A DNA stretch of 64,000 bases from Prosthecobacter debontii (lineage in GTDB: Bacteria; Verrucomicrobiota; Verrucomicrobiia; Verrucomicrobiales; Akkermansiaceae). Where the stretch lies: positions 1-64,000 of the forward strand of contig CAMBPB010000005.1 of the NCBI GenBank assembly GCA_945869465.1, given 5' to 3'. The translations under genes and the position numbers were made by a program. The notes under the pieces are model-generated. The model made no database searches, was not told the origin of the DNA, and was given only the letters and a program-made list of their open reading frames with translations. Shown piece after piece: positions 8,687-25,907 of the stretch. Positions within the stretch are counted from its first letter, which is position 1. Each line of letters opens with the position of its first letter.

Positions 8687-10573
8687 TCAGTCCTGCAAAT
8701 ACGTCTTCGGCCGATAGAGCAGCGCGTAAGGCACGAAGGCCACCGCGGTGGCGAGCATCAGCCAGGTGAAAAAGCGGAAGTAGGCCGCGCCGTGCAGGCG
8801 GGTTTGGCCGCCGGAAAACGCGGTGCGCTTGAACCCCGCGGCGGCGGGTTCGTCCGCTTTGTCCGGCTTGACACCGAGTTCGCGTTTGCGGCGCGCCAGC
8901 CATGGTTCCGGCGGGTGAAACCGGTCGGTCCACGACGGTGTTCCGGCCCCGGCCGCGTCCGGGAGATCGAGCATCAATCCGAGGTCCCAGCGGGTGCCGG
9001 ATTTGCGGTCCGGTCCGTCGCTGATCAGGCGCGCACGGAGGGAGTTGAGAATCTGATAGCGCAGCGGCGAGCCCCATGGATCGCGGAGTTTTTCCAGGGC
9101 GGTGGTCACGACGGCTTCATCGGGAAAACGGCCGCTGTTGGAATCCGTTAGCCGCTGGACGATCGCGGCGGCCTCGTCAAACACCGCCTGCCCAGGGATT
9201 TCAAGCGATGTCGGCACCCCGTCGGCGATTCGTTGCACGAGATCGTCGGCGGTGCCGGTGGTGCCGTCGTAACCGGGAAGCAGGACGTTCCGCGGATCCT
9301 TGCGCCAATCCCCCGGCAGGGTGGCGGTCTGCCCGGGGAGTTGCTCCGCCGCCGCATCCGGGATCTGGATGAAGTGGTTGACGCCCGCGACGAAGAAATT
9401 TCCGATCGCCACCGCGCCCAGATAGAAACACATCAGCAAGGATTTCATCGTCTTTGGCGCCTGGGTGTAGGCATATTCCAGGGCGACGATCGAGACCATC
9501 ACCTCCGCCACCGTGAGCAGGGCGAAGGCGAGGATCTGCCACGCGATGTTCGGTCTCGCGCCGCCATCGATCCACTGTTGGATGAGGGCGATCAGCGCGA
9601 ACGAGCCCGCCATGATGAACAAGCCGAGCCCGATCTTGCGCAGCGGCGTGAGTTTCCAAACCCGGTCCCCGAGCGGATAGACGGCGTAAGCGAAGATCGG
9701 GATGAAGGTGAGCACGAACACCGAGTTGAGCGCTTGGATCTGCGAGGGCAGCCACTCGAAGCCGAGGAAATGCCGGTCCATGTCCTGCGACTGGAAGATC
9801 CATGTCGAACCGGTCTGGTCGAACAGCGCCCAGAACATCGCGACAAACAGATAGAGCGGCAGCAGCTTGAGCATCGCCTTGAGTCCGTCTCCCTGGAACA
9901 CTTCGCGCACGAAATGCCTGCCGCTGGCGGGCACATGGATGAAGCGGTTTCTGCCTAACCAGAACACCAGCGTGGCAAGCGCCATCAGCACGCCCGGCAC
10001 GCCGAATGCCCAGTGCGGGCCATGCCATTCCAACAGCCAGGGCGTGAGCAACATCGAGACGAAGGCACCGATGTTGATTGCAAAGTAGAACCAATTGAAA
10101 ATCCGCGACAGCAGATGGGCGTTGCGCGCGCCGAACTGGTCGCCGACATGGGCTGAGACGCAAGGTTTGATGCCGCCGGAACCGCAAGCGATCAGACCGA
10201 GCCCCGCCATCAGCCACCACGGGGAGGCGCCGAACAGACCCATGCCGGCGAGCGCGGCGTGGCCGGCGCAATAGACGATTGAGAGTGCGATGATCGTCCG
10301 GTATTTGCCGACGAAAATATCCGCGAGGAGCGCGCCGAGGAAAGGTGTCAGATAGACCGCGCCATTGAACAGGTGGACGCTCGCGGTGGCTTCCGCCTCG
10401 TTCATCACGCCCGAACCCTTGCCATCCATGAGGTGCAGGTATTGCACCATGAACACGGCGAGCACGGCCTTCATCCCGTAGAACGAAAAACGCTCGGCAG
10501 CTTCGTTGCCGATGATGTGTGGGATGCCGGGCGGGAGGCCTTCAATCTCGGCGGGGGAGGTGCGGTAGGACAT
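8687..10573 (-). CDS. POT/PTR family proton-dependent oligopeptide transporter with extra domain
   Basis: Inner-membrane di/tripeptide:proton symporter, 628 residues from the ATG at 10571-10573; that start avoids overlap with the upstream glycosyltransferase. The POT signature GNEAAERFSFYGMKAVLAVFM is near residue 22, and multiple transmembrane segments follow. About 190 residues (roughly 402-596) are inserted before the last membrane helix (TWLMLATAVAFVPYALLY). Within the insert, residues about 498-536 (DPWGSPLRYQ...SDGPDRKSGTRWD) look like the C-terminal part of GspG-type pseudopilins. Ordinary bacterial POT proteins are 450-520 residues, so the insert explains the excess length. It is the last gene of the polysaccharide block, 8 bp from its neighbour. 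Confidence 0.92.
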   Translation of the reverse strand: MSYRTSPAEIEGLPPGIPHIIGNEAAERFSFYGMKAVLAVFMVQYLHLMDGKGSGVMNEAEATASVHLFNGAVYLTPFLGALLADIFVGKYRTIIALSIVYCAGHAALAGMGLFGASPWWLMAGLGLIACGSGGIKPCVSAHVGDQFGARNAHLLSRIFNWFYFAINIGAFVSMLLTPWLLEWHGPHWAFGVPGVLMALATLVFWLGRNRFIHVPASGRHFVREVFQGDGLKAMLKLLPLYLFVAMFWALFDQTGSTWIFQSQDMDRHFLGFEWLPSQIQALNSVFVLTFIPIFAYAVYPLGDRVWKLTPLRKIGLGLFIMAGSFALIALIQQWIDGGARPNIAWQILAFALLTVAEVMVSIVALEYAYTQAPKTMKSLLMCFYLGAVAIGNFFVAGVNHFIQIPDAAAEQLPGQTATLPGDWRKDPRNVLLPGYDGTTGTADDLVQRIADGVPTSLEIPGQAVFDEAAAIVQRLTDSNSGRFPDEAVVTTALEKLRDPWGSPLRYQILNSLRARLISDGPDRKSGTRWDLGLMLDLPDAAGAGTPSWTDRFHPPEPWLARRKRELGVKPDKADEPAAAGFKRTAFSGGQTRLHGAAYFRFFTWLMLATAVAFVPYALLYRPKTYLQD

Positions 10574-24068: not shown

Positions 24069-25907
24069 TCACGCTTTCGGTTTTTTGCCTTCGAAGTGCT
24101 CCTCGATTTCCTCCAGCGTCTTGCCCTTGGTTTCCGGCAGGAAAAAGGCGGCGGTGATGAAGTAGATCACGGTGCAGGCGGCGAAGGCGAAGAACATCGT
24201 GCCGTAGCCGTATTTGCCGACCGTGGGCAGGAAGATCGCGGCGATGGTGGTGGAAACCGCCTGATTGACCAGCAGGGCGATGCTCATGCCGTTGGAACGG
24301 ATGCGGGTGGGCATCAGTTCCGATAGAGCGAGCCACACGCAGACCCCCGGCCCGATGGCGAAGAAGCCGATGAAGACAAAGATGCACACCGCAATGGTCC
24401 AACCGTTGGCGGTGCTGGGCACCGGCGTGATGAGCGCGTTTTCGATCTTGATGTCGGCATTCTTGGACTTCTCCAAATCGGCAAACGGGTTCTTGAAAAA
24501 TGCATCCACACTGTTGCTAGGCAGGCTGGCGTTGCGGCTGATTTTGAGTTTCGCCGCCTTGTCGTCGGAGCGCACCACATTGGTGGCCGCGGTGAAATCC
24601 CCGCATGAATAGATGATCGACAGCGTTGTGGGTCTTCCGGCGATCGCCTTGCCGGCCTCCCCGGCGGTGGTTAGAAAGCCGGCGGCCTTGGCATCGTCGT
24701 ATTTGATTTCCACCAGCTGATCTTTCACCGCCTGTCTGGTGCCGTCGGCCAAGACTTTTTCGGCGTCCACCTCGGTGACCAGCGCCTGCACGGCGTCCTT
24801 GCAATCGACGCGAAGTTTCTCGGTGTTGCGGAAGAGGAACCCGACGGCTATCAGGGAAACGATGATGCCCGCGGTGCCGATCGAGAGCAGGAATTTGCGG
24901 CCTTTTCTATCCACCAGCGCCACCGCCCCCATGGTCATGACGAAATTGACGAGGGTGAGAATCACATAACCCATGTGCGCCTGGGCATCGTTCAAACCGG
25001 CTTGAATGAGGATGGTGGCGTTGTATCCGATGATCGAGTTGATACCGGTGGCCTGATTGCAGGCGAGGATAACGCAGGCCAGAACGAAGGGGATCACATA
25101 TTTCCGGGACCGCAGCGAACCGCCGCTCGTCCCGGTGGCCTTCGCGGATGCCTCGGCGCTGGCCGTGTCGCGCATTTCGTCGATTTCACGTTCCGCCTGG
25201 TCCGGCACGCGCGAACGCAGCAACGCGCTGCGGGTGGCCTCCACCTTGCCACGCTTGAACAACCAGCGCGGCGACTCCGTGACCATGAACGCGCCGATGA
25301 CGAACACCACGCCGGGCAGCATGGAAACCCAGAAAATCCAGCGCCAAGCATGTTCCTTGGCGGCGAAGAGTTCCTCGAGGGTGCCGTCCTTTTCAATGCC
25401 CCCGATCCAGATGCTGAAGCCGTAGCCGATCAACGCCGCGGCGACGATGCCGAGCGTGAGCAGCCATTGAAACACGCCGGTGCCTTTGCCGCGATTGGCG
25501 GCGCTGAGGCATTCGGCGAGATAAAGCGGGATGACCACTCCGATCAATCCGGCACTCACCCCTTGCAGCAGACGTCCCATCACCAGCGGGCCGAATCCCT
25601 CGGCCAGGGCGATCATCGGGATGCTCGCCACAAACACCAGGCCACTGACAATCATCATCGGCTTGCGGCCGACCAGATCGGACAGCATCCCTGCAAACAG
25701 CGTGGAAATGACACTTCCTAACAATACCGCCGCCACGATGATGGACAATTCCCCGGCGTTCAGCCCGGATGTGGCTTCCATATACGGCAGCGCGCCGGCG
25801 ATGATGCCGACATCAATCCCGTAAAGCAGACCGCCCAAGCCAGCGACGATGAGAAGGAAGCGATTGTAGCGCTGGATGCTGGTCGGCGGGGTGGATGGAG
25901 TGCTCAT
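24069..25907 (-). CDS. MFS sugar porter with a large extracytoplasmic insert
   Basis: Inner-membrane sugar:proton symporter family, 612 residues from the ATG at 25905-25907. Family marks include GGLLYGIDVGIIAGALPY, DLVGRKPMM, VPLYLAECLSAANRGKG-like VIPLYLAECLSA, ESPRWLFKRGK, NQATGINSIIGYNATI, DRKGRKFLL and PETKGKTLEEIEEHF. About 140 residues (360-501) are inserted between predicted helices 9 and 10 on the outer side; they hold two cysteines (about 369 and 435). Normal sugar porters are 450-500 residues. The sugar is unknown. It stands alone on its strand with a divergent antitoxin gene upstream. Confidence 0.92.
   Translation of the reverse strand: MSTPSTPPTSIQRYNRFLLIVAGLGGLLYGIDVGIIAGALPYMEATSGLNAGELSIIVAAVLLGSVISTLFAGMLSDLVGRKPMMIVSGLVFVASIPMIALAEGFGPLVMGRLLQGVSAGLIGVVIPLYLAECLSAANRGKGTGVFQWLLTLGIVAAALIGYGFSIWIGGIEKDGTLEELFAAKEHAWRWIFWVSMLPGVVFVIGAFMVTESPRWLFKRGKVEATRSALLRSRVPDQAEREIDEMRDTASAEASAKATGTSGGSLRSRKYVIPFVLACVILACNQATGINSIIGYNATILIQAGLNDAQAHMGYVILTLVNFVMTMGAVALVDRKGRKFLLSIGTAGIIVSLIAVGFLFRNTEKLRVDCKDAVQALVTEVDAEKVLADGTRQAVKDQLVEIKYDDAKAAGFLTTAGEAGKAIAGRPTTLSIIYSCGDFTAATNVVRSDDKAAKLKISRNASLPSNSVDAFFKNPFADLEKSKNADIKIENALITPVPSTANGWTIAVCIFVFIGFFAIGPGVCVWLALSELMPTRIRSNGMSIALLVNQAVSTTIAAIFLPTVGKYGYGTMFFAFAACTVIYFITAAFFLPETKGKTLEEIEEHFEGKKPKA

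Follow-up and report, generated by a model that had tools for sequence, protein, structure and literature searches.

A Bacterial POT Peptide Symporter with a Probable Pseudopilin-Related Domain in Its Predicted Outer TM11–TM12 Loop

The window, by which we mean the whole stretch of 64,000 nucleotides analyzed here, encodes a POT-type peptide symporter with a 193-residue insert between TM11 and TM12, and the comparisons described below support a relation between the core of this insert and the globular half of the T2SSG (GspG) pseudopilins. We put the probability that the anatomy of the insert and its relatedness to T2SSG are jointly right at roughly 0.93. The features of the gene, with coordinates in the window and the evidence used, are as follows.

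8687–10573 (−), POT (PTR2) peptide symporter gene, 628 residues and a stop (PF00854, 284.6 bits)
9371–10525 (−), transport core TM1–TM11, residues 17–401 (AlphaFold2 model)
8792–9370 (−), predicted periplasmic insert between TM11 and TM12, residues 402–594, 193 residues (AlphaFold2 model and loop lengths)
9242–9274 (−), Motif 1, GYDGTTGTADD, residues 434–444, in the N-terminal hairpin of the insert (pattern match)
8966–9190 (−), T2SSG (GspG)-like core, residues 462–536, with a helix, DPWG and three strands (hhalign, Pfam on relatives, insert model)
8984–9022 (−), Motif 2, SDGPDRKSGTRWD, residues 518–530, calcium-type loop with Trp529 (alignment to GspG)
8879–8932 (−), conserved tail with WLxRRKxELG, residues 548–565 (conservation; short helices in the AlphaFold2 model)
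8717–8791 (−), TM12, residues 595–619 (AlphaFold2 model)

Results and Discussion

Gene and transport core

In the Pfam scan the window POT passes the curated cut-off of PF00854, which is 27 bits, and the match reaches only to about residue 403. Translation probably begins with the ATG at 10573 (MSYRTS...), since many close relatives start at the same place. The AlphaFold2 model of the whole protein, calculated with 47 sequences (mean pLDDT 86.8, pTM 0.87), has twelve long helices, i.e., a predicted 12-TM MFS fold, and is matched best by POT structures in Foldseek (6ei3, E 2.6e-23). At the sequence level, the best PDB match is PepTSo (2xut, E 3.5e-88), and the mammalian PepT 7nqk is also matched (E 2.5e-70). 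The named top matches in a viral structure library were MFS-type proteins, which have no bearing on the insert.

The entire transport core is common to the window POT, PepTSo and the PepTXc-type bacterial POTs of PF00854. The residues aligned with E24, E27, R28, K136, D252, and E366 of PepTSo are kept, including the ExxER of TM1, while Lys35 is found at a position where PepTSo has an arginine. These are coupling residues of PepTSo. Since they are retained, with one Arg exchanged for Lys, ordinary proton-coupled peptide uptake is the likely activity of the protein. No other POT above the Pfam cut-off is present in the window's genome, where a third match falls below the cut-off.

Position and sidedness of the insert

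The AlphaFold2 model places the end of TM11 at residue 401 and the start of TM12 at residue 595. Measured with its anchors, the TM11–TM12 loop has 198 residues in the window POT versus 9–19 in the complete POTs without an insert that were compared, and about 180 residues are therefore extra between the same anchors. The same lengths led us to reject the idea that the insert is a loop common to all POTs. The count of Lys and Arg, with three flanking residues included, is 17 in the cytoplasmic loops and ends and 3 in the other periplasmic loops, and on the basis of this positive-inside pattern the insert is predicted to lie on the periplasmic side.

An earlier note, made from the sequence alone, had described about 190 extra residues before the last membrane helix and had placed them outside the membrane. 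Both statements agree with the present model and charge counts, and the coordinates given there are correct to within a few bases; the motif quoted in it corresponds to residues 498–536 (window 8966–9082).

The insert is present at 45 of the 51 loci found by a search with the window protein, a query which itself favors copies carrying the insert. The six remaining loci are three planctomycete genes, which lack the insert, and three cut or frameshifted genes (L028, L042, and L053).

Anatomy of the insert

The insert consists of an N-terminal hairpin, a core and a conserved tail. The core is composed of a helix (462–478), Pro484, the DPWG stretch (498–501), two strands, the loop 518–530, and a third strand. 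Pro484 is invariant in the first set of inserts and is aligned to the YP of GspG. The helix, the proline, DPWG, the hairpin, the GPD loop and the strand are all shared with GspG (PF08334; 3g20, 2kep, and 4lw9). GspG has, however, a prepilin motif and a hydrophobic assembly helix, while the insert has neither, carries Trp in place of Asp in most members, and is embedded in a transporter. No insert of either set has the prepilin motif (0 of 46 in the first, 0 of 45 in the second), and the best 19-residue hydropathy is at most 0.99 and 1.54 in the two sets, respectively, compared with 2.39–3.01 in 27 GspG sequences. By these measures the hydrophobic assembly helix of pilins is missing from the insert, a feature to be added to the earlier description.

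The exchange concerns Trp529, at the position of the first Asp in GspG's DD pair. Tryptophan stands there in 46/46 inserts of the first set and in 42/45 of the second, the exceptions being two Asp and one Asn. With Trp at this position, the aspartates of the calcium site of GspG, which we take to be those that bind the metal, appear not to be fully kept. The earlier note had likened this region to the C-terminal calcium-site region of GspG; the relation of the core stands at the level of sequence, while the calcium site itself is altered by the tryptophan. According to a review, changes of the calcium aspartates impair type II secretion.

A second motif, to be added to the earlier description, is located in the N-terminal hairpin, at residues 434–444. 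A pattern search detected this canonical-looking Motif 1 (GxDGxxGTxDD) in 48 of 57 inserts; it is degenerate in one sub-clade, and the hairpin that carries it is missing from L103, L204, and L205, where most of the core is kept. The idea that the hairpin duplicates the core's own loop received an hhalign probability of 4.3%, and the comparison of the hairpin with GspG gave 61.7% over 19 columns. In the tail, Trp558 is invariant in 46 inserts and Leu559 is conserved at 90% or more. The shortest inserts seen, at L204:1563-1937 and L205:595-969, lack the N-terminal hairpin; their loop reads ...GPDGELKTEDDF, with a DD pair where most other inserts have WD.

Relation to the GspG pseudopilins

The insert of the window POT, searched alone, matches no Pfam or NCBIfam family at E≤10, and the question could therefore not be settled without relatives. 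When the window insert and 45 relatives were searched together, T2SSG (PF08334) was matched at E≤10 in 15 of the 46, with a best value of 0.0037. Among ten further inserts, four passed the curated T2SSG cut-off of 21 bits (L087 27.7, L088 23.1, L098 21.2, and L089 21.1 bits; best E 3e-6). In the second set, T2SSG was matched at E≤1 in 28 of 45 inserts; this set overlaps the ten-insert scan, five inserts being identical and further genes appearing under other locus numbers. The HMM check proposed in the earlier note thus gives no match for the window insert and a positive answer for its family. In NCBIfam, GspG (TIGR01710) was matched in 8 of the 46 inserts (best E 0.022), while two unrelated families reached lower E values (0.0057 and 0.014), each in one or two inserts. 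A PHROGs search of the inserts returned scattered matches only (best E 0.074).

Profile comparisons point in the same direction. The 27 GspG reference sequences used here come from related genomes, were chosen by their prepilin motif, and had the N-terminal helix removed. Against this reference, hhalign gives 95.6% and a score of 54.5 for the first insert set and 97.4% and a score of 70.0 for the second, where 100 column shuffles reach at most 22.7 and 19.4, respectively. The controls scored 16.4 (reversed profile) and 10.6 (POT core). In a profile search of the PDB, GspG is top-ranked for the first set, but with an E value of 0.15; for the 45 inserts of the second set it occupies ranks 1–6, with a best E value of 0.022, an unrelated protein being next.

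A search of 288 genomes of the phylum with the insert profile gave matches in 44. Ten are strong (E≤1e-29) and correspond to POT-type frames or, in one genome, to half of a split POT gene. The matches in the other 34 genomes are weak (E 9e-7 or worse) and fall mostly around profile positions 91–128; among 20 such loci examined, the prepilin motif is present in 12 and absent in 8. The frames L107, L108, L111, L112, and L119 lack the prepilin motif and have a T2SSG-like DxWG...GPD...DD stretch. From these sequences it seems that the T2SSG-type module occurs outside pilins elsewhere in the phylum.

The predicted fold was considered next to the sequence evidence. The AlphaFold2 model of the insert has a mean pLDDT of 84.5, with block means of 90–96 over insert residues 21–130. 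In VIA, ranks 1–6 are pilins (EpsG, GspG, TTHA1222, PilE, and the K122-4 pilin) with Z values from 6.7 to 6.1; an unrelated entry ties with them at 6.1, and a Z value under 8 may reflect a common arrangement only. The VIA matches listed are pilins and others, and an immunoglobulin-like fold may lie beyond the listed ones. Foldseek gives no PDB match at E≤0.001, and one pilin (5g2f) appears at rank 48 among the matches listed. Since the Foldseek result is not significant and the VIA values are modest, the relatedness rests on sequence and the fold only agrees with it. A structure prediction unlike T2SSG had been named beforehand as something that could overturn the proposal; the predicted fold is compatible with T2SSG, albeit weakly.

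These modest structural scores, and the fact that the aligned part covers only about 55 columns, would also fit a domain with no pilin relation, in which short DPWG and GPD motifs resemble those of GspG by chance or convergence. We consider this very improbable: four inserts exceed the curated T2SSG cut-off, the profile scores exceed the highest of 100 shuffles by a factor of two or more, and the weak matches of the insert profile include pseudopilins, as indicated by their prepilin motifs. The resemblance to GspG that had been seen by eye is thus upheld by Pfam on the relatives, by hhalign against shuffles, and by the PDB profile ranks.

Distribution and origin

A match at E≤1e-40 is found in 135 of 189 genomes of the order, and it runs through the insert in 65 of these, 24 belonging to the window's family and 39 and 2 to two other families. 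Copies from a further family, together with some from the second, end at about residue 400–412, and those examined lack the insert. The genus group g13 of the window's family (probably Akkermansia) carries POTs from a different branch, and the ones examined are likewise without it. Over the phylum, a POT was found in 69 of 288 genomes.

Two trees were computed from alignments stripped of the insert columns. In each, a single branch separates the insert-bearing proteins from the rest; they make up 55 of 90 rows with an SH-aLRT value of 98 in the first and 29 of 50 rows with support of 100/97 in the second. The first tree excludes 17 distant POTs and seven genes that are duplicates, fragments or frameshifted (L028, L042, L043, L095, L099, L101, and L171); the second, with its 50 proteins picked by hand, shares members with the first and is no independent sample. 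The insert was probably acquired a single time, by an ancestral POT of the order. The survey agrees with the earlier statement that ordinary POTs lack such a domain, the insert being confined in our samples to one clade of the order's POTs, which it marks, rather than recurring as a loop among unrelated POTs. Within the clade, no complete gene examined had lost the domain as a whole.

In ten pairs, dN/dS is 0.04–0.10 for the TM part, 0.07–0.44 for the insert core, and 0.12–0.62 for the insert tail. These values are rough: in one pair the TM part and the tail have reached saturation, and in several pairs dS is near or above 1. For the insert, they are below 1 in 10/10 pairs and higher than for the TM core, which indicates that the domain is retained under weaker constraint than the core.

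Two genes deserve separate mention. At L171 (genome G277) the POT gene is split into two frames of 395 and 243 residues, by a sequencing error or because the gene is broken, and at L206 (genome G433) an insert-bearing POT has a TM6–TM7 cytoplasmic loop of 108 residues versus 26.

Comparison with known transporters

Other bacterial POTs, of the PepTSo and PepTXc type, have a short TM11–TM12 loop and no large outer domain, whereas the window POT has its 193-residue insert there. The mammalian PepT1 and PepT2 (SLC15A1/2) belong to the same superfamily branch and bear a folded outer domain that sits on the C-terminal bundle, an arrangement predicted for the window POT as well. According to PMC4597091 and PMC8565842, that domain consists of two immunoglobulin-like folds and lies between TM9 and TM10, while the domain of the window POT has a predicted pilin-type core and lies between TM11 and TM12. 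The TM9–TM10 loop of the window POT, counted with anchors, has 11 residues, and a placement of the PepT1/2 type is thus not present. Added elements in the same TM11–TM12 loop of the MFS fold are described for Rv1410 and QacA; these are of another MFS subfamily, and the homologues of Rv1410 have a helix extension of 31–38 residues rather than a folded domain.

A probable pilin-type domain in a clade of bacterial POTs contrasts with two papers, in which a large extracellular domain is limited to the mammalian homologues (Beale et al. 2015, PMC4597091) and bacterial POT structures are described as being without a soluble domain (2021 cryo-EM paper, PMC8565842). We found no account of a pilin-type outer domain on a bacterial POT in the open-access literature, to which the search was confined.

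Possible role of the domain

In the explanation that we prefer, the window POT would belong to the PepTSo/PepT kind of proton-coupled di/tripeptide symporters and its transport core would function like that of other POTs, and the TM11–TM12 loop would hold the pseudopilin-related domain resting on the C-terminal bundle. With the assembly helix missing, the domain would be unable to enter a filament or to polymerize. Given this anatomy, it might act as a platform for interactions at the importer's entrance, holding a periplasmic or envelope partner such as a peptidase, a peptide-delivering protein or a scaffold. The proposal draws on the analogy with the outer domain of PepT1/2; according to PMC4597091, this domain binds trypsin, and transport is not appreciably reduced when it is removed. 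We rank the docking platform first because an invariable framework under a rapidly evolving surface is in keeping with a module that tracks its partner, but we regard the platform as somewhat less than an even bet. The faster evolution of the insert relative to the core would fit a dispensable appendage as well, which speaks against a platform, and neither a partner nor a conserved operon was found around the insert-bearing POTs. A putatively FabH-like and a putatively TatD-like neighbor, so named from their sequences, recur in 19 and 17 loci, respectively.

Three other roles were weighed and are ranked, in our inference, behind the platform. About one chance in four is given to a gating or regulatory lid, in which the domain touches the periplasmic helix ends and tunes opening, substrate choice or stability, perhaps with a metal in the GxDGxxGTxDD hairpin. 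The wide occurrence of Motif 1 and the strong conservation of Trp529 and of the WL of the tail would suit such a lid, as would the essential role in transport of the TM11–TM12 elements of Rv1410 and QacA (PMC10576003); the sub-clade with a degenerate motif, the inserts that lack the hairpin, and the dispensability of the PepT1/2 outer domain do not. A slightly less probable reading is that of a passenger, gained once, tolerated in an outer loop, and folded, with little or no role. The variable length and sequence of the insert, its dN/dS above that of the core, and the missing hairpin of some members are in line with this, but whole-domain loss is not seen among complete genes of the clade and dN/dS stays below 1 in every pair. 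A link to a type II secretion or type IV pilus machine, whereby the domain recognizes pseudopilins or the machine's platform and places the importer beside it, would be suggested by the kinship with GspG, yet we find it unlikely, since prepilin motif and assembly helix are absent and no secretion gene is prominent among the recurrent neighbors (3 kb flanks, annotated non-exhaustively). T2SSG is matched in the window's genome and in 39/39 genomes of the relatives search, and such presence therefore cannot discriminate.

The insert would show the globular module of T2SSG in service outside filaments, and what outer domains contribute to peptide uptake becomes testable by deletion in bacterial proteins. 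A broader and rather improbable extension is that bacteria independently invented the principle of PepT1/2, a grafted outer domain holding proteases or a type II secretion outlet at the importer's mouth, and that planctomycete relatives did likewise with another domain in the mammalian loop; if true, this would couple digestion and uptake.

Other outer inserts

The three planctomycete POTs group beside the insert-bearing clade, with support of 88 in the first tree and 94/93 in the second. They have no TM11–TM12 insert, and their TM9–TM10 loops, counted with anchors, comprise 55, 109, and 116 residues versus 11 in the window POT. The inserts themselves, L048:4033-4332, L050:4021-4347, and L052:4024-4164, are 100, 109, and 47 residues long, respectively, and show no Pfam match above the cut-off (best E 0.0081). 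As read from the alignments, they differ from the window insert and occupy the loop that carries the outer domain in PepT1/2.

A second MFS protein with an outer insert is encoded in the window itself, namely, a sugar porter at 24072–25907 (−) with a PF00083 score of 293.6 bits. It has about 133 extra residues (359–492) where residues 324 and 325 of GlcP are contiguous, a position that we take to be the TM9–TM10 outer loop. The corresponding stretch, 24405–24794, has no Pfam match above the cut-off. Judged by frame lengths only, relatives of this porter with long frames of 615–734 aa are present in 13 other genomes.
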